Shown here piece after piece: positions 14,464 to 32,248 of a stretch of 64,000 bases of DNA (the first letter of the stretch is position 1; every line of letters starts with the position of its first letter). This stretch comes from Myxococcaceae bacterium. GTDB taxonomy: Bacteria; Myxococcota; Myxococcia; Myxococcales; Myxococcaceae. The notes below the pieces were generated by a model. That model was not told the DNA's origin. It did not search any database and saw nothing but the letters and a program-made list of their open reading frames with translations. Both the position numbers and the translations under genes were made by a program. The stretch is from assembly GCA_016793095.1 (NCBI GenBank), contig JAEUJQ010000032.1:1-64000 (forward strand). Direction: 5' to 3'.

Positions 14464-15560
14464 GGCGCGTTCAGCCCGCTCCGCGGCGAATACTGACGTC
14501 GCGACGGGCGAGCGCGCGTTCAGCCCGCTCCGCGGCGAGTCCTGACGTCGCGACGGGCGAGCGCGTGCTCTTCCCGCTCCGCGGCGAGTCTGACGTCGCG
14601 ACGGGCGAGCGCGTGTTCTTCCCGCGGCGGCGAGTCCTGACATCACAACGGGCGAGCGCGCGTCCAGCCCGCTCCGCGGCGAGTCCTGACGTCGCGACGG
14701 GCGAGCGCGTGTTCTTCCCGCTCCGCGACGAGTCCTCACGTCGCGACGGGCGAGCGCGCGTCCAGCCCGCTTCGCGGCGAGTCCTCACCACGCGACGGGC
14801 GAGCGCGTGCTTCCGCTCCGCGGCTGACGTCGCGACGGGCGAGCGCGCGTCCAGCCCGCTCCGCGGCGAGTCTGACGTCGCGACGGGCGAGCGCGTGTTC
14901 TTCCCGGGCGGCGGCGAGTCCTGACGTCGCGACGGGCGAGCGCGTGTTCTTCCCGCGGCGGCGAGTCCTGACATCACAACGTGCGAGCGCGCGTCCAGCC
15001 CGCTCCGCGGCGAGTCTGACGTCGCGACGGGCGAGCGCGTGTTCTTCCCGCTCCGCGGCGAGTCTGACGTCGCGACGGGCGAGCGCGTGTTCTTCCCGCT
15101 CCGCGGCGAGTCCTCACGTCGCGACGGGCGAGCGCGTGCTCTTCCCGCTCCGCAGCGAGTCCTCACGTCGCGACGGGCGAGCGCGCGTCCAGCCCGCTCC
15201 GCGCGAGTCCTGACGTCGCAACGGGCGAGCGCGTGCTCTTCCCGCTCCGCGGCGAGTCCTGACATCACAACGTGCGAGCGCGCGTCCAGCCCGCTCCGGG
15301 GCGAGTCTTACGTCGCGACGGGCGAGCGCGTGCTCTTCCCGCTCCGCGGCGAGTCCTGACATCACACCGTGCGAGCGCGCGTCCAGCCCGGGGCGAGTCT
15401 GACGTCGCGACGGGCGAGCGCGTGTTCTTCCCGGGCGGCGGCGAGTCCTGACGTCGCGACGGGCGAGCGCGCGTCCAGCCCGCTCCGCGCGAGTCCTCAC
15501 GTCGCGACGGGCGAGCGCGCGTTCTTCCCGCTCCGCGGCGAGTCCGCTGTCGCGACGGCC
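14464..15560. repeat. Large intergenic tandem array, about 22 units of 41-49 bp
   Basis: The core CGTCGCGACGGGCGAGCGCG or a close variant recurs about 22 times, 41-49 bp apart, plus a degenerate last unit near 15550. Each unit ends in a segment like CCCGCTCCGCGGCGAGTCC. Units come in two alternating versions (GTTCTTCCCG or GTCCAGCCCG after the core). Larger blocks are duplicated, for example the segment near 14618-14690 reappears near 14945-15020. The core contains the perfect 10-bp palindrome CGTCGCGACG. Frames stay open on both strands, but only through repeat translation, and I annotate no gene here. The surrounding gap 14411-15674 is otherwise empty. Confidence 0.92.
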
Positions 15561-19913: not shown

Positions 19914-20198
19914 TCAGTCCTGCTTGAGGTGCTTGTTCACCAGCTTGGTCATCTCGAACATGTTGACGACCTTCTTGCCGCCGAAGACCTTCTTCAGCGC
20001 GTCGTCCGCGTTGATGTTGCGGCGGTTCTTGTCGTCCTGCAGCTTGTTCTTCTTGATGTACTGCCAGAGCTTGCTGGTGACTTCCGTGCGCTTCATCTGC
20101 TTGGTGCTCCCCAGAACGACGGCGAGCTCGGCAGACGGAGTGACGGGCGGCATCTCGGGCGGCTTACGCTTCGACTTCGTGGCTTTCTTGGCGGCCAT
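19914..20198 (-). CDS. SWIB/MDM2-domain protein
   Basis: A 94-residue protein: a short basic tail (MAAKKATKSKRKPPE) and then a single SWIB domain (SAELAVVLGSTKQMKRTEVTSKLWQYIKKNKLQDDKNRRNINADDALKKVFGGKKVVNMFEMTKLVNKHL). SWIB domains are best known from eukaryotic chromatin remodellers, and small stand-alone copies occur in chlamydiae and some proteobacteria/Myxococcota. The basic tail suggests nucleic-acid binding. ATG 20198 follows GGGGAGGAG eight bases upstream. A strong terminator follows, so it is monocistronic. Confidence 0.92.
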   Translation of the reverse strand: MAAKKATKSKRKPPEMPPVTPSAELAVVLGSTKQMKRTEVTSKLWQYIKKNKLQDDKNRRNINADDALKKVFGGKKVVNMFEMTKLVNKHLKQD

Positions 20199-20328
20199 TT
20201 CGGTTTGTCTCCTCCCCTCAAGGGGACCAGTAACGGTTCCTTTCCTCAGAACCGGCGGCACGAGCTAACACGTCGCCCGAGAGAAAACAGCCCCTCGTTG
20301 CATTTCTTTCGAGGGAAAGTGCCGACCC

Positions 20329-21303
20329 ATGCGTGTCCTCATCACCGGCGCCAACGGCTTCGTCGGCTCCTGGCTGGCCTCGTTCCTCGCCGAGCGGAGG
20401 CACCAGGTGCGCTGCCTCGTGAGAGAGGGCAGCGACCGGAGCGCCCTGTCGCACCCCGACGTCACGGTGGTGCCGGGCGACGTCACCCAGCCAGAGAGCC
20501 TCGGCCCTGCGCTCGAGGGCGTCGAGGTCTGTTACCACCTGGCTGGAATCCGGAGGGGCAGCAGCCGGGACGACTTCTTCCGGGTGAACGCCGAGGGCAC
20601 CCGGCTGGTGGCCGAGGCCATGGTGCGGACGGGAGGTCGGCGGCTGGTGCTGTGCGGCTCGCTCGCCGCGTCAGGCCCGTCGCTCTCGGGGCGGCCGCGC
20701 CGGGAGGAGGACCCGTTCGCGCCCGAGGAGTGGTACGGCGAGTCGAAGGCCGAGGCCGAGCGCCTGCTCTTCTCCTTCAAGGACCGGCTCGAGGTGACGA
20801 GCTGCCGGCCGGCGCGGGTCTCCGGGCCCGGCGACCACGAGAACCTCACCTTCTTCAAGCTGGTGCAGCGCGGCGTCATCTTGAAGCTGCTGGGGCCCGA
20901 GCGCCGCATCTCGTTCGTCGACGTCGAGGACGTGGTGGAGCAGCTCGTGCTGCAGGGGGAGCGCCCCGAGGCGGTGGGCGAGGCCTTCTTCTGCGCGTCG
21001 GGCCAGACCGAGACGCTCGAGTCGCTGATGCGCTTCATCGCCGAGGTGCTGGGGCTCGACGCCCGCGTGGTGCCGGTGCCCGAGCGCCTGCTCGAAGGCA
21101 CGGGCGCGGTGGCGGACCTGGTGTCCACGCTCACGGGGAAGAAGCTGCCCATCAACCGCAAGCTGGCGCGCCAGCTGCTCGCCCCCGGGTGGACCTGCTC
21201 GACGGACAAGGCGACGCGGCTGCTCGGCTTCACCGCGAAGCGCAGCGTGCGGGACTCGGTGCGCCGGTCGGGCCTGTGGTACCGCGAGCACGGGTGGCTC
21301 TGA
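20329..21303 (+). CDS. Extended SDR NAD-dependent epimerase/dehydratase
   Basis: A 324-residue extended short-chain dehydrogenase. The NAD site is MRVLITGANGFVGSWLASFLAERRHQVRCLVR. The catalytic Tyr-Lys is in EEWYGESKAEAERLL, with an upstream Ser region (VLCGSLAASG). The layout resembles 3-beta-hydroxysteroid dehydrogenase/epimerase-like members. It begins a run of four plus-strand genes (SDR, HAD, E2-like, LarA-like) separated by 29-136 bp. Substrate unknown. Confidence 0.88.
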   Translation: MRVLITGANGFVGSWLASFLAERRHQVRCLVREGSDRSALSHPDVTVVPGDVTQPESLGPALEGVEVCYHLAGIRRGSSRDDFFRVNAEGTRLVAEAMVRTGGRRLVLCGSLAASGPSLSGRPRREEDPFAPEEWYGESKAEAERLLFSFKDRLEVTSCRPARVSGPGDHENLTFFKLVQRGVILKLLGPERRISFVDVEDVVEQLVLQGERPEAVGEAFFCASGQTETLESLMRFIAEVLGLDARVVPVPERLLEGTGAVADLVSTLTGKKLPINRKLARQLLAPGWTCSTDKATRLLGFTAKRSVRDSVRRSGLWYREHGWL

Positions 21304-21332
21304 GCGCCGCCTGTGCTAGGCGTCCCCCCCGC

Positions 21333-22043
21333 ATGAAGCACGAGCACGCGATGACGAGTCCCTCCGAGGCCCCGAAGAAGGCGGGCAAGGCGGCCTTCTT
21401 CGACGTCGACGGCACCCTCATCAGCACCAACGTCGTGCACGCCTACGGCTTCTACGCGATGAACACGGGGAACTACCTGGGCATCGCGAAGCGCTCCCTG
21501 TCCACCCTGGTGAACCTGCCCGTGTTCGGCGTGCTCAACCTCGTCGACCGGAAGATCTTCAACGAGTACTTCTACCGGCAGTACGAGGGCCTCTCGGAAG
21601 ACCGGCTCTTCACCCTGAGCCGCGACCTCTTCACCGACGTCATCAAGCCCGCCATCTTTCCCCGCGCGCAGGACCTCATCGACCAGGCGCGGCGGGCGGG
21701 CTGCAAGGTGGTGCTCATCACCGGCGCGCTCGACTTCACGATGCAGCCCCTGGCGCGACACCTCGGCGCTGACGACCTCATCGCCAACCGCATGCAGTTC
21801 GTCGGAGGCTTCGCCACCGGCAAGGTGATTCCGCCCATCATCGAGGGCGCCAACAAGGCCAACGTCATTCGCGAGTACTGCGAGGCGCACGACATCTCGC
21901 TGGTGAAGAGCTTCGCCTACTCCGACTCGGCCAGTGACTACGCGATGCTCACCGCCGTCGGGCGGCCCACCGCGGTGAACCCGGACCTGCGCCTGAGGGC
22001 GCTCGCGCGCAGCTACAACTGGCCCGTGCTCGACCTGCGGTAG
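21333..22043 (+). CDS. HAD-superfamily IB hydrolase
   Basis: A 236-residue haloacid dehalogenase-type phosphatase. Motif I is AAFFDVDGTLISTN, motif II is VVLITGALDF, and motif III/IV is KVIPPII...VKSFAYSDSASDYAMLTAVGRPTAVNPD, as in SerB/CicA-type subfamily IB enzymes. It is expected to remove phosphate from a small metabolite or lipid. It lies 29 bp after the SDR gene and is probably in the same operon. Confidence 0.88.
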   Translation: MKHEHAMTSPSEAPKKAGKAAFFDVDGTLISTNVVHAYGFYAMNTGNYLGIAKRSLSTLVNLPVFGVLNLVDRKIFNEYFYRQYEGLSEDRLFTLSRDLFTDVIKPAIFPRAQDLIDQARRAGCKVVLITGALDFTMQPLARHLGADDLIANRMQFVGGFATGKVIPPIIEGANKANVIREYCEAHDISLVKSFAYSDSASDYAMLTAVGRPTAVNPDLRLRALARSYNWPVLDLR

Positions 22044-22179
22044 TCACGCCCCCCGTTCGACGGTACCCGACCTGCACACTGCCTCGGCGCACGTGCAGCG
22101 GCTTGCACACCGTGGCGGGGTCCAACCCATTGAACTCAGAGGAGTCTCGACCGGCACACCGCCTGCTCTGGGGTGGTGC

Positions 22180-23022
22180 ATGCTCTTCACCCGACCCGAC
22201 GCGAAGCGCTGCACCGACGTGAACCCCAGCCGCGCCATCATGCCGTTCCTGATGCCGACGCGCACCGAGTCAACAGTGCAGTTCGAGCAGGAGCTCGACC
22301 TGACGAAGACGCAGGCCTTCGTCGACCGCTGGAACGAGGCGCACCCCGAGCAGCGCATCACCGTCTTCCACGTCTTCCTCTCGGCCCTGGCGTGGAGCTT
22401 CGAGGAGTGGCCCCGCCTCAACCGCTTCGTCTCGGGCGGGCGGCTCTGGCAGCGCGACGGCGTCTACGTCAGCTTCGCGGCGAAGAAGAAGAAGGCGAAC
22501 GGCTCGCCCCTCGTCGTCGTCAAGCGCCGCGTGGACACGGTGAAGTCCTTCACCGAGCTGGTGTCCCTCACGCACGCGGACGTGAAGGCGGGCCGCAGCG
22601 AGAAGAAGTCGAGCCAGGACAAGGAGCTCGACCTGCTCACGATGCTCCCGGCGTTCCTCCTCGGCCTGGTGGTGAAGCTCGTGAGGCTGGCCGACCGCTG
22701 GAACCTGCTGCCCCGGAAGTTCGTCGATCACGACCCGCTCTTCACCAGCATCTTCGTGGCGAACCTGGGCAGCGTGGGCCTCGAGAGCGCGTACCACCAC
22801 CTCTACGAGTACGGGAACTGCCCCTTCTTCGCCGCGCTCGGCCGCTCGAAGACGGTGCTGACGCCCGAGGGCCCGAAGCTGGTCTGCAGCGTGAAGTACA
22901 CCTTCGACGAGCGCATCGAGGACGGCCTGTACTGCGCCCACGCGCTCGAGTCGGTGAAGGCCCGCGTCGAGAACCCCGAGACGATGGCCGAGGTCGAGCC
23001 CCGGCTCGCCGAGGCCGCCTGA
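22180..23022 (+). CDS. 2-oxoacid dehydrogenase E2-like acyltransferase catalytic domain
   Basis: A 280-residue protein made of a catalytic-like CAT/E2 domain only, without lipoyl or subunit-binding domains. MPFLMPTRTESTVQFEQELDLTKTQAFVDRWNE and ITVFHVFLSALAWSF fit the domain start, and the C-terminal VKYTFDERIEDGLYCAHAL takes the place of the usual DHRxxDG active-site segment. The catalytic His of HxxxDG is not conserved at that spot, so acyl transfer from CoA is uncertain. ATG 22180 is the first plausible start. It sits in the SDR-HAD-LarA-like run. Confidence 0.72.
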   Translation: MLFTRPDAKRCTDVNPSRAIMPFLMPTRTESTVQFEQELDLTKTQAFVDRWNEAHPEQRITVFHVFLSALAWSFEEWPRLNRFVSGGRLWQRDGVYVSFAAKKKKANGSPLVVVKRRVDTVKSFTELVSLTHADVKAGRSEKKSSQDKELDLLTMLPAFLLGLVVKLVRLADRWNLLPRKFVDHDPLFTSIFVANLGSVGLESAYHHLYEYGNCPFFAALGRSKTVLTPEGPKLVCSVKYTFDERIEDGLYCAHALESVKARVENPETMAEVEPRLAEAA

Positions 23023-23079
23023 ACTTCCCCGAGTGTCTGCTTGACCTGCCCAGCCCGCGCGGCCAAAAGCCAGCGGGCG

Positions 23080-24693
23080 ATGCGCCCCCTGAAGACCCTC
23101 AAGAAGCTCTACGACGACGAGAGCCACATCATCACCACCGAGAAGGGCAGCCCGCCGCGGGTGATGTTCTACGGTGAGGACTTCTGGGTCGAGGATCTGC
23201 CGGTCGGCACCCGCGTCATCTGCGCCAGGCCGCCGCTCGAGGGCGTGCCCAACCTGAAGGCCGCCATCCGCTACGCCATCAACCACCCCGAGGGCATGGA
23301 CCCGCTCCACGCCCTCTTGAAGCCGGGCATGAAGGTGACGGTGGCGCTCGACGACATCTCGCTGCCGCTGCCGCCGATGAAGACGCCCGACGTGCGCCAG
23401 GCGGTGCTCGAGATCGTGCTCGAGCTGCTGGCCGACTCCGGCGTGGACGACGTGCACCTCGTCATCGCGAACGCGCTCCACCGGCGCATGACCGAGGCCG
23501 AGATGAAGCGCATGGTGGGCCAGACCATCTTCGACGCCTACTACCCCGACCGCTACTACAACCACGACGCCGAGGACCCCGACGGCATCGTCGAGCTCGA
23601 GCGCACCAGCCACAACGAGGTCGTCGCCATCAACCGGCGCGCCGCCGAGTCCGACCTCGTCATCTACGTCAACATCAACCTCGTCCCCATGGACGGCGGC
23701 CACAAGTCGGTCGGCACGGGGCTCACCAACTACGAGTCGCTGCGCGCGCACCACAACCCGCAGACGATCCGTGACTCCGACTCGTACATGGAGCCGGGCC
23801 GCAGCCAGCTGCACCGCTCCACCGAGCGCATCGGCCGCGTCATCGACCAGCACTGCAAGGTCTTCCACATCGAGACCACCATCAACAACCGCATGTTCGA
23901 GGAGCCGGTCGGCTTCCTGATGAAGAAGGAAGAGGACTTCACCGAGTTCGACCGCCTCAAGCTGCAGTCGTTCAAATACGCGCTGTCGAAGATGCCGCGC
24001 GCGCTGAAGCGGAAGATGTTCTTCAACATCTACGCGCCCTACGAGGTGACGGGCGTGTTCGCGGGCGCCACCGAGCCCACGCACCAGAAGACGCTCGAGA
24101 TGTCGTGGAAGCAGTACTCGGTGCCTGTGCAGGGGCAGAGCGACATCGTCATCTTCGGCATGCCCTACGTGTCGCCCTACAACGTGAACTCCATTCTGAA
24201 CCCGCTGCTGGTCCAGGTGATGGCGCTCGGGTACCTCTACAACCTGAACCGCGGCGTGCCGCTGGTGAAGAAGGGCGGCGTCATCATCTTCACGCACCCC
24301 TGCTACGACGAGTTCGACCCCGAGCACCACGCGCCGTACATCGAGTTCTTCAACCGCCTGCTGCCCGAGACGCGCGACGCGGTGAAGCTCGAGCACAAGT
24401 ACGAGCGGGAGTTCGCGAAGAACCCGTCGTACGTGCACCTCTACCGCAAGGGCCACGCGTACCACGGCGCCCACCCCTTCTACATGTGGTACTGGGGCGA
24501 GAACGGCCGCCAGCACGTCGGCAAGGTGATCGCGGCCGGGGCCGAGAACAACCACGTGCCCGCCATCATGGGCTGGGACCGCACCGACACGCTGAGCGAA
24601 GCCATCGAAGAGGCGCGCGGCTTCATGGGGCGCGGCGCGTCCATCAGCTTCGTGAAGATTCCCCCCATCCTCCAGACCGACGTCCGCCTCTGA
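23080..24693 (+). CDS. LarA-like (DUF2088) nickel-pincer family protein
   Basis: A 537-residue protein. The N-terminal ~300 residues match the lactate racemase LarA N-domain: [26 protein letters not shown] (His134, equivalent to a catalytic His), and [17 protein letters not shown], where Lys209 falls at the position used by LarA to attach the nickel pincer nucleotide. The C-terminal half is longer than in LarA. Likely reaction: hydride-transfer racemisation or epimerisation of a hydroxy acid, but the substrate is unknown. A LarB homologue at 62344 could supply the cofactor precursor. ATG 23080 gives [10 protein letters not shown]. Confidence 0.78.
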
Positions 24694-24701
24694 CAGCGAG
24701 C

Positions 24702-25145
24702 ATGGTTCCCCTCTTCGAGCGACGACCTGACCTCGAGCGTGCCGGCGTCATTCGCGTGTGGCTCTTCGACGACTCGGCGACGATGGTCGATCAGTGCCTC
24801 GGGCCGTCGATGAACGACGAGGTCGTCTCGTTCATCACGGGCGAGGTCGAGGCCGAGCTGCAACGGCGGTGGATCTCGAAGGGCCGAGCGGTTCGTTACC
24901 TCCACGACTGGCGCAGCATCACGACCTACGAGGCCCACGGCCGCGAGCGCCTCATCGAGTGGGGCAAGGTGTCGAAGGCCCATACGGCCGAGGCCGCCAT
25001 CTGCCTGTCTCGCAGCGCCTCGGCGTTCATCCGCATCGCGGCCGTGACCGGCGTTGCCGTGCTGCGCATGCTGCGGATCCCCATCTCGGTCGTGGACGAC
25101 CTCGAGCCGTTGCTCGCCCCGCTCCGCAGCCGCCGCGCCGGCTGA
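24702..25145 (+). CDS. Hypothetical protein, STAS/SpoIIAA-like pattern
   Basis: A 147-residue soluble protein beginning MVPLFERRPDLERAGVIRVWLFDDSATMVDQ. It alternates strands and helices, with the distinctive segment FITGEVEAELQRRWISKGRAVRYLHDWRSITTYEAHGRERLIEWGKV and a hydrophobic helix (FIRIAAVTGVAVLRMLRIPISVVDDLEPLLAPL). The pattern recalls SpoIIAA/STAS-like proteins, but I do not recognise the family. It begins 8 bp after the LarA-like stop and is likely cotranscribed. Confidence 0.65.
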   Translation: MVPLFERRPDLERAGVIRVWLFDDSATMVDQCLGPSMNDEVVSFITGEVEAELQRRWISKGRAVRYLHDWRSITTYEAHGRERLIEWGKVSKAHTAEAAICLSRSASAFIRIAAVTGVAVLRMLRIPISVVDDLEPLLAPLRSRRAG

Positions 25146-25785: not shown

Positions 25786-27213
25786 TCAGGCCCGCAGGCG
25801 GGCGAGCGCGACCTGCGCCGCCCAGGACCCGCACATGCCGTGCACCCCCGCCCCCGGGGGCGCTGAGGAGGAGCACAGCAACACCCCGGGGTTCGGCGTC
25901 ACATAGGGCACCCCGACCGTGGGCCGGAAGAAGAGCTGAAGGCCCTCCACCGCCCCTCCCGAGATGTCCCCACCGACGTGGCTCTGGTTGGTGGCCTCGA
26001 ACTGCGCCGAGTGCTTCGTCGCCCGAGCCAGCACGTGCTTCGAGAAGCCGGGGGCGAAGCGCTCGAGCTGGGCCTCGATGGCCGCCGTCATGTCGGCGGT
26101 GGAGCCGTTGGGCACATGACAGTAGGCCCACAGCGTGTGCTGACCGGGCGGCGCGCGCGTCGCGTCGAAGGGCGTGTGCTGGGCGACGAGCACGTAGGGA
26201 CGCTCGGGCAGGCGACCGGCGGCGGGCGCGGCCTCTGACTCGACGAGCTCCTCGAGCGTTCCACAGACGTGCAGGCAGGAGGTGCGGCGGGCCTCGGGAG
26301 CGCTCCACGGCATCGGCGCGTCGAGCGCATAGTCGAGCTTGAAGACGCCCGGGGCCAGGCGGAAGCCGTCGAGAATGCGCCGCCGGTAGCTCGCGGGCAG
26401 CGCGTCTGCGCACACCCTGGCCATCACGTGCGCGTGCGTGTCGAACAGCACGAGCCGGTGCGGCGGCAGCTCATCGAGGCTCGTCACCGGGTGCGAGAGC
26501 TCGAGCTCGACCCCGGCCTCGCGCAGCATCGCCACCAGCGCGTCCACCAGGCGTTGAGAGCCGCCCTCGATGAACGGCCACCCCACCGCGTGCGCAGTGA
26601 CGGCGAGGATGAGCGCGAAGGCGTTGGTGAGCGGAGTCGTGAGCGGCGAGAACGAGTGCGCCGCGCAGCCGCCGAGGAGCGCCTTCGTGCGCGCGTCCTG
26701 AAACGTGTCCGCCGCGAACCCTGCCGCGCTCTCGAGCGCCGAGAGCCCGAAGCGGGCGGCGAGCACGGGCGCTGACACGGGCGGCTTCGTGATGGGGTTG
26801 TAGATGAGGCCCTTCAGCTCGTCGAAGCCGTCCACCAGGGGCTTCATGAGCCTCAGGTAGGCGCGCTCGTCCGCGCCCAGCCGGGCCGCGGTGGCCTCGA
26901 CGCTGCGCTCCAGCACCGCCGCCTCGCCGCCGTCGAGCGGGTTCACCACCGGGAAGTCGGAGTGCAGGAACTTCACGCCGTACTTCTCGAGGGGCAGCGA
27001 GGCGAAGAACGGCGAGCCGGCGGCGAGGGGGTGAATCGACGAGCAGAGGTCGTGCACGAACCCGGGCTTCGTCAGCGCCATCGACCGCGCCGCACCGCCG
27101 AACGTCGACTGCCCTTCGATGAGCTTCACCGAGTGGCCCGCCTTCGCGAGCACGAGCGCCGCCGCGAGCCCGTTCGGCCCCGAGCCCACCACCACGGCGT
27201 CCCAGATCTTCAC
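25786..27213 (-). CDS. CrtI/PYROXD2-like FAD-dependent oxidoreductase
   Basis: A 475-residue flavoprotein. The FAD-binding Rossmann motif is AVVVGSGPNGLAAALVLAKAGHSVKLIEGQSTFGGAARS, and a family C-terminal segment is NPGVLLCSSSAPPGAGVHGMCGSWAAQVALARL. It resembles phytoene-desaturase-like NAD(P)/FAD oxidoreductases (PYROXD2 group) but not the crt genes of this window, and no carotenoid role is implied. The GTG at 27211-27213 follows GGAGGCGAC and overlaps the aroA stop (GTGA), so it is the last gene of the shikimate operon. Why an amine-oxidase-like enzyme is coupled there is unclear. Confidence 0.85.
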   Translation of the reverse strand: MKIWDAVVVGSGPNGLAAALVLAKAGHSVKLIEGQSTFGGAARSMALTKPGFVHDLCSSIHPLAAGSPFFASLPLEKYGVKFLHSDFPVVNPLDGGEAAVLERSVEATAARLGADERAYLRLMKPLVDGFDELKGLIYNPITKPPVSAPVLAARFGLSALESAAGFAADTFQDARTKALLGGCAAHSFSPLTTPLTNAFALILAVTAHAVGWPFIEGGSQRLVDALVAMLREAGVELELSHPVTSLDELPPHRLVLFDTHAHVMARVCADALPASYRRRILDGFRLAPGVFKLDYALDAPMPWSAPEARRTSCLHVCGTLEELVESEAAPAAGRLPERPYVLVAQHTPFDATRAPPGQHTLWAYCHVPNGSTADMTAAIEAQLERFAPGFSKHVLARATKHSAQFEATNQSHVGGDISGGAVEGLQLFFRPTVGVPYVTPNPGVLLCSSSAPPGAGVHGMCGSWAAQVALARLRA

Positions 27214-28418
27214 GTCGCCTCCGCTGGGGTGATGCCGACCTTCGCCACTTCCCGCCAGAACCCGGGGAAGCTCTTGGCGACGGCGTCCGCTCCCCGCACG
27301 GGAATCGTCACCCCGAGGAGGGAGGCGGCGACGGTCGCGGCCATGACGAGCCGGTGGTCGTCGCGCCCATCGTAGACTCCGCCTCGCGCGGTCGCCGGAG
27401 GGGTGACCGTCAGGCGCTCGCCCTCGACCTCCGCCCGGCCACCGGCGAGGCGAACGAGCGTCACCAGGCCGTCGAGCCGATCGCTCTCTTTCAGCCGCAG
27501 CACGCCGCAGCGCACGAACGTCGATGGAGCAGGCGCCACCAGGGCCATCGCGACCAGCGCGGGCACGGCGTCGGGACAGACCGAGGCGTCGACCTCGAGC
27601 CCGCAGCGCAGGGCGCCCCGCACCCACGTCAGCCCCTCCCGGGTCTCGAGCCTCAACCCCGCGGCCTCGACCAGGGTCGCGAAGGCGCGATCGGGATGAG
27701 CCGCGGTGAGGTCGACCTGGCGAACCCCGACGCCGGACCTCCACGAGAGCGGCAACAGGTACGTCAGCGACGACCAGTCTCCCGGGAGCTCGACCGGCGC
27801 CGGCGCCGCGCGCCACCCAGTCACCACGAGCCTGTTCTCTCCTCCGCCCACGACGAAGCCGAAGCGGCTCATCCACGCCACCGTGAGGGCGACGTACCCG
27901 GCGCTGGTGGCCGCTCCGTCGATCTCCACCGTCACTGGCGAGCGGCCTTCGCGAACCACCCGCGCCGCGCCGAGCAGCAGGCTCGAGGTGAACTGGCTCG
28001 ACTCGACCCCGGAGACGCGGAACGTGGTGACGACCGGCCGGGCGCCCGTCTCCACGGTGAGCGGCCAGAACGCCTCGCCATGACGAACCGCGACGCCGAG
28101 GGACTGGCGAAGGGCCTGCAGCAGCGCCTCGTGAGGACGCTCCCCGAGCCTCTGGCTGCCGACGAAGCGCCACGAGGTGTGCGGCTTCAGCGCGGCCTGG
28201 GTGACGAGGAAACGGAAGGGCGCTCCCGCGTCCAGGCAGTCGAGGTCGCCACCACCGCCCCGCAATGTCCGCAGGCCCCGGGACAGCACCTCGACGTCAC
28301 GCGGCAGCTCCGTCAGCCCCGAGAGCAACGGCTCGTGCTGGCCCTCGCAGAGCTCCGCCAGCACCAGGGCGCGGTGGGCGTCTGACTTCGACACCGGCGG
28401 GACGAGCACCTCAGGCAC
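27210..28418 (-). CDS. aroA: 3-phosphoshikimate 1-carboxyvinyltransferase (EPSP synthase)
   Basis: A 402-residue EPSP synthase joining shikimate-3-phosphate and PEP. Motifs: VPPVSKSDAHRALVLAEL (substrate Lys and Arg), LDAGAPFRFLV in place of GNAGTAMRPL, SSQFTSSLLL, and the C-terminal RLKESDRLDGLVTL and DGRDDHRLVMAA. The divergent GAP loop resembles class II or myxobacterial enzymes, so glyphosate sensitivity cannot be predicted. It overlaps aroB by 8 bp upstream and the FAD gene downstream. Confidence 0.93.
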   Translation of the reverse strand: MPEVLVPPVSKSDAHRALVLAELCEGQHEPLLSGLTELPRDVEVLSRGLRTLRGGGGDLDCLDAGAPFRFLVTQAALKPHTSWRFVGSQRLGERPHEALLQALRQSLGVAVRHGEAFWPLTVETGARPVVTTFRVSGVESSQFTSSLLLGAARVVREGRSPVTVEIDGAATSAGYVALTVAWMSRFGFVVGGGENRLVVTGWRAAPAPVELPGDWSSLTYLLPLSWRSGVGVRQVDLTAAHPDRAFATLVEAAGLRLETREGLTWVRGALRCGLEVDASVCPDAVPALVAMALVAPAPSTFVRCGVLRLKESDRLDGLVTLVRLAGGRAEVEGERLTVTPPATARGGVYDGRDDHRLVMAATVAASLLGVTIPVRGADAVAKSFPGFWREVAKVGITPAEAT

Positions 28419-29445
28419 GCCGCCAGGGTCCTTTCACGCACGCCTGCCACTCACGCGCCGGCACGTCGACGAGGCGCCACCGGCCCAGCTCCTCGAGCAA
28501 CACCATGCGCACCTGACCGGGCGCGCCCTTCTTGTCGGCCGCCAGCAGCCCGCCCACCGTCGAGGTGGAAGCGCCCCTCAGCAGCGTGGCGATCGTCACG
28601 CGCGCGCCCCGCGGCATCGGCAGGCCCGCCTCGATGCTCGCCGCCACGCTCGGCGCGGTGACGCCCAACCGCACGCCCAGGTCGAGCGCGCACAGCATGC
28701 CCAGCCCGACCGCCTCGCCGTGGCGCAGGCGGTAGCCGCTCAGGCTCTCGAAGACGTGCCCGAAGGTGTGGCCGAAGTTCAGCACCACCCGCACGCCCTT
28801 CTGCTCGTACGGGTCCGTGCGGACCACGGCCTCCTTGAGATCCCTCGCCTCTCGCAGCAGCACCTCGTCAGCTGGCGGGCGCCGCAGCCACCGGCGCGCT
28901 GTCGCGGCGTCGAGCGTCACCACCATCTTCCAGGCCTCGAGGCGGCCTTCGCGCCGCTGCGCCTCGGTCAAGGTGCCGAAGAGCTCGTCGCACAGCCAGG
29001 TCTCCGCGGCGCCGTGGAACACGCCCAGCGCGTTCTTCACGGGCCCCACGTTCACCGCGCCCTTGCCGCCGATGGAGCTGTCCACCGCGGCGAGCAGCGT
29101 CGAGGGCACCTGCACGAGCCGCACGCCGCGCCGATGCAGGTGCGCCAGCACCGCCACCACGTCACCCACCGTGCCGCCGCCGAGCGCTACGAAGGTGGCG
29201 CCGCGAGAGACGTGGACGAGCTTCGTGGCGAACCGCTCCACCGCCTCGAGCGTCTTGCTCTCCTCCCCTGCTGGCACGCGATGCACCACGCGTCCGCGCA
29301 GCGCCTTCGCCACACGCGGGTGGCTCCGCAGCACCTTCGGGTCAGCGAAGACGACGGCCTCGTCGGGCAGCGTGCGGGCGAGCTCGGGGAAGCGACCGAC
29401 GACGTCGACGGACGGCAGCACGGCGCCAGGCGGCAGGTGGGTCAT
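28411..29445 (-). CDS. aroB: 3-dehydroquinate synthase
   Basis: A 344-residue NAD- and zinc-dependent DHQ synthase. It shows FVALGGGTVGDVVAVLAHLHRRGVRLVQVPSTLLAAVDSSIGGKGAVNVG, the NAD-binding and active-site segment with Lys-Gly, and FGHTFGHVFESLSGYRLRHGEAVGLGM, carrying the zinc-ligand His residues. It converts DAHP to 3-dehydroquinate. ATG overlaps the aroC stop as ATGA. Confidence 0.95.
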   Translation of the reverse strand: MTHLPPGAVLPSVDVVGRFPELARTLPDEAVVFADPKVLRSHPRVAKALRGRVVHRVPAGEESKTLEAVERFATKLVHVSRGATFVALGGGTVGDVVAVLAHLHRRGVRLVQVPSTLLAAVDSSIGGKGAVNVGPVKNALGVFHGAAETWLCDELFGTLTEAQRREGRLEAWKMVVTLDAATARRWLRRPPADEVLLREARDLKEAVVRTDPYEQKGVRVVLNFGHTFGHVFESLSGYRLRHGEAVGLGMLCALDLGVRLGVTAPSVAASIEAGLPMPRGARVTIATLLRGASTSTVGGLLAADKKGAPGQVRMVLLEELGRWRLVDVPAREWQACVKGPWRRA

Positions 29446-30479
29446 GAGCGGTGAGGCCTCGCGAGGAAGGACAACCAGAGATCGGCGAACACCAGCGCGG
29501 CCATCGCTTCGACGACGGGCACCGCGCGGGGAAGGATGCAGGGGTCGTGACGGCCCGCCCGGGCGTGATCGGCCAGCGTGGCGGGCGGCTTGAAGAGCAC
29601 CCGCACCTGCACGGGCTCGCCGTTCGACAGCCCACCCTGAATCCCGCCGTAGACGTCGCGCGGCCGGCCGTCAGCGGGGAGCGCGTGGAAGCGGGAGCCG
29701 GGCCAGGTGAGCTGCTCCTCGAGGTCGGCGCCGCCCCAGACGACGCCCGTCACCGCGCCGATGCCAGCGAGCGCGTCAGCGAGCCGCGCCTTGAGCTTGC
29801 CGAACACCGGCTCGCCCAGTCCTGCGGGAACGCCTTCGACCCGCAGGGTGATGGCGCCGCCATAGCTGTCCCCGGCCGCCTTCGCCTCGAGCAGCCTCGC
29901 TTCGATCCGTTCGGCGAGGGCCGCGTCGGGGCAGCGCGTAGGGTGCGCGTCCACCTGCGCGCGCGTGAGGCCCGGCGGCGGCGGCGGCGCGATGAGCGGC
30001 CCGACCTGCGAGACCCACGCGACCAGGTTGAGCGCGGGCACGTCGCGGCGCAGGAGCGCCTCGGCCACCGCCCCACCGATGACGCGGCAGAGCGTCTCGC
30101 GCCCGCTCGTGCGCCCGCCGCCGCGTGGGTCGCGGTGCTTGAAGCGCTCGCGCCAGACCCGATCTGCGTGGCCGGGTCGATCCTCCGTCGCCAGCTTCGC
30201 GTAGTCGCCGCTGCGCGCGTCCTGGTTGCGCACCACCGCGGCGAGGGGCGTGCCCAGCGTCTTTCCCTCGTACACCCCCGAGAGCAGCTCGACGCGGTCG
30301 GCCTCGTTGCGACCCGTCGTCACCGCCGACTGGCCCGGCCGGCGGCGATCGAGCGCGCGCTGCACGTCGTCGGCCGACAGCGCGACGCCCGAGGGACAGC
30401 CGTCGATGACGGCGCCCATCGCCGCGCCGTGGCTCTCGCCGAAGGTGGTGACGCGGAACAGCTCTCCGAAGGTGTTCAT
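29442..30479 (-). CDS. aroC: Chorismate synthase
   Basis: A 345-residue FMN-dependent chorismate synthase. Signatures: MNTFGELFRVTTFGESHGAAMGAVIDGCP, RRRPGQSAVTTGRNEADRVELLSGVYEGKTLGTPLA, and RPGHADRVWRERFKHRDPRGGGRTSGRETLCRVIGGAVA. It makes chorismate from EPSP. Length and motifs are normal. Its ATG overlaps the aroKDE stop (ATGA) and its stop overlaps aroB, so translation is coupled along the operon. Confidence 0.95.
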   Translation of the reverse strand: MNTFGELFRVTTFGESHGAAMGAVIDGCPSGVALSADDVQRALDRRRPGQSAVTTGRNEADRVELLSGVYEGKTLGTPLAAVVRNQDARSGDYAKLATEDRPGHADRVWRERFKHRDPRGGGRTSGRETLCRVIGGAVAEALLRRDVPALNLVAWVSQVGPLIAPPPPPGLTRAQVDAHPTRCPDAALAERIEARLLEAKAAGDSYGGAITLRVEGVPAGLGEPVFGKLKARLADALAGIGAVTGVVWGGADLEEQLTWPGSRFHALPADGRPRDVYGGIQGGLSNGEPVQVRVLFKPPATLADHARAGRHDPCILPRAVPVVEAMAALVFADLWLSFLARPHRS

Positions 30480-32248
30480 GTCGCCGACTCCCACGCCGTG
30501 CGCTGCTGCCTCGCCTGCGCGATGAACCACCGAGGCCCGAGCCGCACGACGATGCCACCGAGCGCGCGCACCTTCGAGGCAATCGTCCGCGCCGGGGCAC
30601 CGTAGGCGATGACGCCCACGTGCGCTGCCTCGAAGCGCAGGGCCGGTGGTGGCTCGACGTGGGCAGGCCAGGTCCACACCACGGCCCCCCGCTCGACGCC
30701 GTCGAGGGTGTCTCGGCGCTTGAAGACCAGCGCCAGCCCCAGCTCGTCCGCAGCGACCGTCAGCGCCTGGCTCACGCCGCCGTCGCCCAGCACCGTTACC
30801 GCGCGCGCACCAGCGAGCCCGGCGAGGTGCTCGAGGGCGGCCTTCGCGCCCGCGACGTCGGAGTTGAGGCTCTGCCACCCCTGCGGCGCGCGCACGAGCG
30901 TGTTGACGGCGGCCGCGCTGGCATCGACGGCGCGAGCGACCGCCTTCTTGAAGGGGTTGGTGACGGCGAAGCCCCGGTAGTGCGGCCTGAGCGCGGCCAG
31001 CAGCGCAGCGAGGTCGGTGTCGGGAGGGACGTCGAGGCGGTCGAACGGCTGCGCGTGAAGCCGTGGGCTGCGTGAGTGGGCCAGCGGGTGTCCGAGGATG
31101 GCCAGCCGCGCGGTGAGCGGGTGGTGCGTCGGCCGTCGGGTGGCGCGCACCGCGTCGGCGAGCAGGCGCTGGCCCACCGCCGCGCTCCAGGCCGGGCTCA
31201 GCGCGAGGTAGTCGAGGGCGTTCCGCTCGGCGAGCAGCGCGCGGAAGGGCAGCGCGAGCGGCCCGGTCGTCAGCACCGTGACGCGGCCGGGGCCGAGCCG
31301 CGCCTCGAGCTGCCGCTGGGTCTCGAAGAGGCGCGGGGCATCGCCCAGGGGACCCAGCGGCTCGACGTGCTTCACCTGGACTCCGGCGGGAACGCCGTCC
31401 CAGAGCCGCAGCGCTTCCGTGGTCGAGAGCGGGCGTTCGGCGTGGTGCGAACGAACGGAGCCCTCGGCGGCGTCGAGCAGCGCCGCGTGCCTGCGCCAGT
31501 CCGCCGGGGCGGAGAGACCAGCCCGCTCGGCCACGAGCAGCGGCAACGCGCGCGCCAGCAGGCCCAGGTCCAGCTCGAGGGGCGTGAGGTCGGTGCGCAC
31601 CTCGAGCAGGTCGGCGCCCTGGTGGCGCGCAGCCCAGGCGAACTCCACCGGGTGCGCGTCGGGCGGCAACGTCACCACGCGGCGCGCGCGCGGCGCCCGC
31701 TGCAGCGCGAGCAGGAAGTCCACGAAGGACATCGTCTTCACGCGCCGGTGCTTGTCCTCGCGCTCGGCCCAGACGGTCTCGAGCTCCTCGTGCCGGGACA
31801 CGCCGGGCATCAGCCGGGGCCGCGACGCGTCGGCGGTGAGGCGCTCGACGAACGTCTCGAAGGTGACGGGCACCAGCACGGTGACGCACCCCGCGAGCGC
31901 CTGTGGGTGGCTCGAGAGAAAACCGCCGCCCACGGCGATCACCCCACCAGCGGGCAGGCTCGCGAACACCTCGCGCTCGGCGGCGCGAAACGACGATGGA
32001 TCTTCTGCGAACCACTCGCGGATCGGCCGGCCTGCGCGGGCCTCGAGCTCGGCGTCGAGGTCGGTCGCGCTGCGCCCAAGCACCGCCGCCACGTGCGGCA
32101 GGAGGGTGGACTTGCCCGCAGCCCGGTGACCCGCCAGCACCACCGACACGCCACGCGGCAGGCCATCGGCGGCCTCGCCCTCGCGGCGACGCAGCTCAGC
32201 CTCGAGCGTGCCGTGCAGCCGAGGGTCCAGGTGGCGGATCAGGTCCAC
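30476..32248 (-). CDS. Trifunctional shikimate kinase / dehydroquinate dehydratase / shikimate dehydrogenase
   Basis: A 590-residue fusion. Residues ~33-180 are shikimate kinase: Walker A AGHRAAGKST (40-48), VGGGF, SRPRL. Residues ~190-375 are type I dehydroquinate dehydratase: LLEVRTDL with Glu216, SHHAERPLSTTEAL with His268 or 269, and QVKH with Lys293 for the Schiff base. Residues ~380-590 are shikimate dehydrogenase: ILGHPLAHSRSPRLHA, VTNPFKK with Lys434, LNSDVAG with Asp464, and LGDGGVSQAL as the nucleotide loop. Start is GTG 32248 without a clear ribosome site, so the first residues are uncertain. It heads the operon; together these genes cover every step from DAHP to chorismate. Confidence 0.9.
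   Translation of the reverse strand: MDLIRHLDPRLHGTLEAELRRREGEAADGLPRGVSVVLAGHRAAGKSTLLPHVAAVLGRSATDLDAELEARAGRPIREWFAEDPSSFRAAEREVFASLPAGGVIAVGGGFLSSHPQALAGCVTVLVPVTFETFVERLTADASRPRLMPGVSRHEELETVWAEREDKHRRVKTMSFVDFLLALQRAPRARRVVTLPPDAHPVEFAWAARHQGADLLEVRTDLTPLELDLGLLARALPLLVAERAGLSAPADWRRHAALLDAAEGSVRSHHAERPLSTTEALRLWDGVPAGVQVKHVEPLGPLGDAPRLFETQRQLEARLGPGRVTVLTTGPLALPFRALLAERNALDYLALSPAWSAAVGQRLLADAVRATRRPTHHPLTARLAILGHPLAHSRSPRLHAQPFDRLDVPPDTDLAALLAALRPHYRGFAVTNPFKKAVARAVDASAAAVNTLVRAPQGWQSLNSDVAGAKAALEHLAGLAGARAVTVLGDGGVSQALTVAADELGLALVFKRRDTLDGVERGAVVWTWPAHVEPPPALRFEAAHVGVIAYGAPARTIASKVRALGGIVVRLGPRWFIAQARQQRTAWESAT

Follow-up and report, generated by a model that had tools for sequence, protein, structure and literature searches.

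A rearranged ether-lipid (elb) operon with a predicted nickel-pincer enzyme in a Myxococcaceae genome

Gene content of the locus and its relatives

The window analyzed here is a 64,000-nucleotide stretch of contig JAEUJQ010000032.1 from the genome assembly GCA_016793095.1 of a Myxococcaceae bacterium (G000 in the genome set used below). It contains a run of four open reading frames (ORFs) that encode an extended SDR, a HAD phosphatase, a CAT/E2-like protein, and a LarA-like protein. As a first-pass annotation of this DNA had stated, the four lie in one orientation; all are present, open, and on the plus strand, with intergenic gaps of 29, 136, and 57 bp (Table 1). The family assignments of that annotation are confirmed by the scores against PF01370, PF12710, PF00198, and Lar_N/NF052592. 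On direct reading of the sequences, the SDR retains the motifs TGANGFVG and YGESK, and the HAD protein retains DVDGT and DSASD.

The view that no known route uses this set of genes proved wrong for three of the four. The ether-lipid (elb) operon of Myxococcus xanthus consists of elbA to elbE (Lorenzen et al. 2014), as described in PMC9131029; this paper, like PMC7583248, PMC11770544, PMC9426513, PMC11868695, and PMC10087280, is cited here for the available part of its text. Because their order and domain make-up match this description, on which the gene names used here rest, the SDR, HAD, and LarA-like genes of the window are assigned as elbA, elbB, and elbC; the product of the last is listed in PMC9131029 as a protein of "unknown function." In the loci of Myxococcus and Corallococcus, genes for an SDR, a HAD protein, a LarA-like protein, a multidomain protein of about 1474 amino acids (aa), and another SDR follow one another in the order of elbA to elbE.

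A scan of genome contigs identifies at least 578 stretches that encode LarA-like relatives, and the best 80 of these, from Myxococcota and Acidobacteriota, make up the set of loci compared here. In Myxococcaceae loci, orthologues of the elbA-like SDR gene precede elbB, and the SDR-HAD-LarA order is kept in those loci of Myxococcus, Corallococcus, and Anaeromyxobacter that reach far enough upstream. Of the loci, 75 contain a HAD match or extend 1 kb or more upstream of elbC; 70 of them have a same-strand elbB no more than 5 kb upstream, and 51 have it no more than 400 bp upstream. Downstream, 73 loci contain an elbD match or extend for 1.5 kb or more, and elbD lies within 5 kb of elbC in 56 of these; of the 17 loci that lack it, 13 belong to close relatives of the window (at least 82% identity). 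The grouping of the SDR, HAD, and LarA-like genes exceeds chance. Scattering among relatives, the outcome that would have spoken against the first-pass annotation, is seen for the E2-like gene, which is found at other places. The HAD-LarA pair is conserved in two phyla, and the SDR-HAD-LarA set in the three genera named above.

In G000, elbD is located on the same contig as elbC, 107 kb away (G000:C76:131973-136340, minus strand), so that the two genes are not adjacent. The encoded protein combines NAD_binding_4/Sterile, AMP-binding, PP-binding, and Acyltransferase domains, and elbE adjoins elbD. Judged from this gene content, the run is a broken-up and rearranged elb operon, with elbA-elbB-(E2-like gene)-elbC in one place and elbD-elbE in another. 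PMC9131029 notes that the linkage of elbD-elbE to elbB-elbC may be absent in some myxobacteria. Clusters of elb genes are also in print for sponge (PMC9426513), Black Sea (PMC11868695), and acidobacterial (PMC10087280) genomes. One further elbA-elbE cluster is found in a record titled Comamonas sp. KCTC 72670 (L024:6252-15048). Its elbD and elbE are 94% identical to those of Myxococcus, and the record is probably a misnamed or mixed assembly.

Table 1. Features of the window, with positions counted from its first nucleotide
Feature	Position	Strand	Family match or basis
elbA-like extended SDR (NAD-dependent epimerase/dehydratase family), 324 aa	20329-21303	+	PF01370 Epimerase, 104.9 bits
elbB-like HAD-IB phosphatase, 236 aa	21333-22043	+	PF12710, 111.7 bits; TIGR01490, 122.6 bits (cut-off 98.3)
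CAT/E2-fold protein without a lipoyl domain, 280 aa	22180-23022	+	PF00198 2-oxoacid_dh, 39.9 bits (cut-off 23)
elbC, LarA-superfamily protein, 537 aa	23080-24693	+	Lar_N, 123.6 bits; NCBIfam NF052592 LarAH_14_15_16, 841.4 bits, full-length (cut-off 740)
ORF5, 147 aa, 8 bp after elbC	24702-25145	+	No Pfam or NCBIfam match
larB, biosynthesis of the nickel-pincer-nucleotide (NPN) cofactor, 220 aa	62344-63006	+	NF033503, 251.9 bits (cut-off 175)
Small SWIB/MDM2-domain gene	19914-20216	-	102.7 bits
Tandem array, about 22.7 copies of a G+C-rich 49-base repeat	14475-15558
Overlapping genes resembling a compact shikimate/chorismate cluster	27210-32248	-	Named from translations only

Two features of the window were absent from the first-pass annotation: larB, 38 kb downstream of elbC, and the fifth codirectional ORF, ORF5. 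The latter has no relatives in the 80 related loci and belongs to no Pfam or NCBIfam family; on these grounds its membership in the elb operon is doubtful, and it was dropped as a candidate. A promoter scan found none, with a consensus that does not cover other promoter types. The gene divergent from elbA encodes a SWIB/MDM2 domain, which is eukaryote-associated and odd for a bacterium. The tandem array contains long open frames on both strands, and the shikimate/chorismate-like cluster includes a fusion-like ORF of 590 aa.

ElbC, its partner ElbD, and its predicted cofactor

The distribution of ElbC and ElbD was compared in 146 genomes of Myxococcota and 199 of Acidobacteriota. ElbC is found in 99 of the 146 Myxococcota, in 96 of them over the cut-off and in three (G026, G130, and G143) in a split or cut form. 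ElbD is present at E ≤ 1e-200 in 97 of the 146, every one an ElbC genome. The two remaining ElbC genomes hold a split ElbD, with one piece at a contig end in G119 and two pieces, one of them beside elbC, in G057; counting these pieces, every ElbC genome has ElbD (99 of 99). No ElbD at E ≤ 1e-200 was found in the 47 ElbC-negative Myxococcota, where the top three candidates were scored and weaker ElbD-like proteins are possible. Among the 97 genomes, elbC and elbD are at most 300 bp apart in 73, at most 8.2 kb apart in 6, and widely separated, on a single contig, in G000. In Acidobacteriota, ElbC is rare (over the cut-off in 18 of 199). Full-length ElbD (at least 41% identity, in some cases as two matches) is found in 15 of these genomes, all 15 with ElbC; the two genes lie within 2.6 kb in 14 and on different contigs in G321. 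Divergent pairs also occur: G328 encodes an ElbC-like protein that scores 519 bits, below the cut-off, 2 kb from a gene for an ElbD-like protein of about 33% identity, and in G188 divergent ElbC-like and ElbD-like proteins are encoded on different contigs.

By its residues and fold, ElbC looks like a one-His NPN enzyme within the LarA superfamily, and it may be expected to carry NPN. In an HMMER alignment with LarA of Lactiplantibacillus plantarum, D92, H134, N200, K209, and H225 of ElbC pair with D72, H108, H174, K184, and H200, respectively, in LarA numbering. All five ElbC residues are invariant in the 24 aligned ElbC proteins, including the cofactor Lys209, whose retention the first-pass annotation had recognized. 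With the active-site roles of the LarA residues given in PMC12611868 (NPN lysine, nickel His, catalytic His, and ribose Asp), K209 is predicted to be the NPN lysine, H225 a Ni ligand, D92 the ribose Asp, and H134 the catalytic His. LarA racemase uses two catalytic His residues, H108 and H174. ElbC keeps the first, as H134, and is missing the second, with no His at residues 192 to 207 in any of the 24 proteins. The second His is also lacking in LarA groups 14 and 15 (PMC12611868). The place of LarA R75 is taken by Leu, Val, or Met in the 24 ElbC proteins.

The AlphaFold model of ElbC (pLDDT 85.9, pTM 0.87) has its best structural matches in 9q3k (LarASp; Z 38.9) and 9q3j (LarABw; Z 35.9). Other LarA-family entries follow down to Z 22.0; matches at Z 6.3 or less, below the LarA family, were treated as background. 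The entry least like ElbC within the LarA family is 4nar, which we take to be the gluconate epimerase of T. maritima, and for this reason gluconate epimerase is not favored as the identity of ElbC.

In G000, no Lar_N protein other than ElbC was found, and larB, larC, and larE are all present over the cut-off. The larB gene of this genome stands alone, on a contig other than that of larC and larE; larB and larC are neighbors in many relatives. Among the 99 ElbC-containing Myxococcota, LarC and LarB are over the cut-off in 98 each and LarE is in all 99. No second Lar_N protein is found in 79 of the 99, and LarC is kept in 78 of these 79.

These data bear on the idea that ElbC has kept the fold and not the NPN catalysis and assists the Elb enzymes in a structural or regulatory capacity. 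Such a role would suit the loss of the second catalytic His, the replacement at the place of R75, the failure of NPN loading of LarABw (PMC12611868), and one genome, G115, that retains ElbC without LarB and LarC. However, a dead ElbC is unlikely because the lysine, the nickel His, the catalytic His, and the Asp are all invariant. The retention of LarB and LarC in 98 of 99 ElbC genomes and the presence of NPN in the structural neighbor LarASp (PMC12611868) argue in the same direction, and we regard a noncatalytic ElbC as decidedly improbable.

The E2-like gene and CarF-like loci

The E2-like protein has PF00198 as its sole match and contains no lipoyl domain. The first-pass annotation had noted the absence of the usual His of the HxxxDG motif, and the site indeed reads FDERIEDG, with Glu in place of the catalytic His. 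The pattern FDER[IV][ED]DG is found in all 16 aligned sequences, out of 21 hits above 100 bits, whereas a paralogue encoded in the same genome keeps the His.

The gene is found in none of the 80 related loci, where no match is better than E 0.79. One locus of this set, L004, has the length (4373 bases) of the contig that bears elbC in G127; the E2-like gene of that genome lies on another contig, so that splits of this kind do not escape the set. It occupies the same place, in the order A-B-E2-C, in the same-genus genome G127 (L090), with one extra ORF on the other strand between the E2-like gene and elbC. In close relatives, the gap between elbB and elbC is filled by unrelated genes which, from their translations, encode an ATPase and an HNH-like protein, peptidase-like proteins, histidine kinases, and protein-kinase-like proteins. 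For its absence from all 80 loci, the E2-like gene was rejected as a core member of the pathway. These observations also weigh on the proposal that the SDR, HAD, E2-like, and LarA-like proteins form one dedicated four-gene pathway for a hydroxy acid. The common orientation and short gaps of the run would agree with it, as would the gene order in G127, apart from the opposite-strand ORF there. However, both elbB and elbC are seen in 70 of the 80 loci without the E2-like gene, close relatives have unrelated genes between elbB and elbC, and the other three genes are those of a known operon. This proposal is already largely refuted, and hardly any credence is left for it. Of the first-pass suggestion of a pathway for hydroxy-acid or lipid modification, the lipid direction stands, and the self-contained four-gene hydroxy-acid route does not.

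The E2-like gene is present, at more than 100 bits, in 17 of 96 Myxococcaceae genomes (21 hits; the one in G151 is a fragment). A gene for a CarF-like domain (PF10520, Lipid_desat; CarF/PEDS1 family) lies within 0.4 kb of it in 7 of the 17 genomes and within 1.2 kb in 2 more; Pfam confirms four of these carF-like neighbors with 200 to 213 bits. The gene is found within elb in G000 and, as a second copy, in G127, and elsewhere only in seven genomes (G172, G140, G119, G153, G138, G154, and G151). The carF-like neighborhood persists where the E2-like gene is missing (L136 and L138 to L140), in G000 (L133) on one side only. A family of about 225 aa (cluster c4, nine members) adjoins the E2-like and CarF-like genes in L091, L092, L094, L095, L130, and L135. 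The L091 copy has no Pfam match, and the family may belong to the plasmalogen locus.

The elbB-elbC gap of the close relatives, with its unrelated genes, had led to the view of the E2-like gene as a random insert; this view was revised, since orthologues adjoin CarF-like genes. In the tree, the two copies located in elb group together (92/94), so that the elb and carF placements may each be one event. Thus, the E2-like gene is not a core elb gene and is lineage specific, and it may still belong to the ether-lipid theme because two of its places, elb and the carF-like locus, are ether-lipid loci. The link drawn from placement is suggestive only. The protein might act as an optional accessory linked to ether lipids in the lineage of the window.

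Proposed role of ElbC and comparison with known systems

It is probable, in our judgment, that the run is a split elb operon in which ElbC is a one-His NPN enzyme that performs a hydride-transfer step of the ElbD route. According to PMC9131029, most steps and enzymes of the ElbD pathway are uncharacterized. Disruption of an AGPS-like gene lowers ether lipids only slightly, and ElbD is described with ligase, carrier, reductase-like, and acyltransferase-like domains. With its gene in this operon, a hydride-transfer enzyme is a fitting candidate for an unassigned step. In such a scheme, the proteins of the run together with ElbD (reductase, acyl-CoA synthetase, carrier protein, and acyltransferase) would make alkyl-ether glycerolipids. 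His134 would deprotonate a hydroxyl of a glycerol-derived intermediate, and NPN would take the hydride from the same carbon; reductase steps of this route would fall to ElbA and ElbE, and a phosphatase step to ElbB.

The single base makes an ordinary two-base racemization of a simple hydroxy acid unlikely for ElbC. A glycerol-derived substrate is suggested by three points from PMC12611868: the argument that single-His LarA enzymes are possibly unidirectional or act on other chemicals, the linear phosphorylated aldose modeled in LarASp (called highly speculative there), and the triose phosphate isomerase genes located nearby. In PMC7583248, the NPN-containing LarAH14 of Frankia is inactive on seven hydroxy-acid substrates, which fits another substrate. 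The rival reading is that ElbC is an NPN isomerase of an ordinary hydroxy or sugar acid that shares the operon for regulation or carbon supply and takes no part in lipid or backbone chemistry. The LarA-family activities described in PMC7583248 and PMC11770544 are all C2 isomerizations of hydroxy acids, and the elb mutants reported in PMC9131029 (see below) would be in line with this reading. Nevertheless, the near-perfect co-occurrence of ElbC with ElbD in two phyla, the loss of the second catalytic His, and the structural placement of ElbC nearest to single-histidine enzymes and farthest from 4nar all speak against it, and we consider it unlikely.

Several observations weigh against a hydride-transfer role of ElbC in the ElbD route. 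In PMC9131029, an insertion in elbA had no effect on lipids, and the effect of an elbB insertion was ascribed to polarity. That insertion should also lower elbC, and elbD in trans partly restored the mutant, so that ElbC may not be essential; no mention of an elbC mutant was found in the available part of this paper. A protein named LarAH15, which may belong to NF052592, is a gluconate 2-epimerase (PMC11770544). Which ElbC residue corresponds to H174 is not certain: relative to the alignment with LarA, where N200 takes this place, the one with 9q2u is shifted by a residue or two. G115 encodes ElbC, ElbD, and LarE without LarC or LarB over the cut-off, and LarC is found without any Lar_N protein in 15 genomes, so that LarC alone proves little. 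In 17 of the 97 Myxococcota, elbC and elbD do not share a contig. In Acidobacteriota, ElbC is found without a full ElbD in G275, G368, and G311 (the last with the reductase part only, beside elbC), and an ElbD-like protein of about 33% identity is found without ElbC in seven genomes (G336, G320, G230, G204, G344, G352, and G284). Finally, the Fisher's P of 2.4e-36 for ElbC and ElbD in the 146 Myxococcota, from an uncorrected table, is not a real probability because the genomes are related and the counts are nonindependent.

A more specific form of the hydride-transfer role, which we put forward as our own proposal and as a long shot, is that ElbC makes the ether bond in the ElbD route through hydrogen borrowing. 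NPN would take a hydride from C2 of glycerol 3-phosphate, with His134 as the base, and the dihydroxyacetone phosphate so formed would add through its C1 hydroxyl to a fatty aldehyde made by ElbD, with the departure of water. NPN would then give the hydride back to the oxocarbenium carbon, yielding 1-O-alkyl-dihydroxyacetone phosphate, after which ElbE or ElbA would reduce the ketone, ElbD would acylate, and ElbB would dephosphorylate. One base would be enough here because the hydride lands on a carbon other than its source. If true, ether lipids would here be made by a nickel enzyme, with neither AGPS nor ester reduction, and deuterium at C2 of glycerol would be expected to appear at C1 of the alkyl chain.

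None of the papers listed in a literature search connects LarA, lactate racemase, or nickel-pincer enzymes with ether lipids or plasmalogens; supplements and Lorenzen et al. 2014 were outside this search, and an earlier mention is possible. Neither "LarA" nor "racemase" was found in the main texts of PMC9426513, PMC11868695, and PMC10087280 as available. The operon, here in a rearranged form, and the pathway are known, and the kind of enzyme, not found described for elb, is a new chemical lead. It offers a specific and testable cofactor chemistry for the ElbD route and provides a pathway for a LarA group whose one tested member seen in the available sources, LarAH14, is the protein mentioned above as inactive on seven substrates. 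If the hydride-transfer role is correct, alkyl ether lipids of the ElbD type depend on nickel and on larB, larC, and larE, which can be checked with the existing genetics of M. xanthus. The E2-like gene becomes a candidate accessory tied to plasmalogen loci.

The arrangement in G000 resembles the elb operon of M. xanthus in the kinds and order of elbA-elbB-elbC and in the domains of the elbD-elbE products. It differs in the 107-kb distance of elbD-elbE and in the E2-like gene between elbB and elbC. ElbC matches NF052592 (LarAH_14_15_16) over its full length and shares the LarA fold, the NPN lysine, the nickel His, and one catalytic His. However, ElbC is tied to a lipid operon, whereas the LarA enzymes of known activity in the papers cited act on small hydroxy acids. 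LarASp and LarABw (PMC12611868), of which the former carries NPN and the latter could not be loaded with it, are the best structure matches of ElbC and, like it, are missing the second catalytic His. Their identity to ElbC is 23 to 25% over the aligned residues, and their neighbors are carbohydrate genes, not elb. As for the CarF/PEDS1 plasmalogen desaturase loci, E2-like orthologues stand beside a Lipid_desat gene in 9 of 17 genomes, whereas the carF-like gene of G000 is located on another contig, has no E2-like neighbor, and stays under the cut-off of the NCBIfam CarF model (350.4 bits; cut-off 500).

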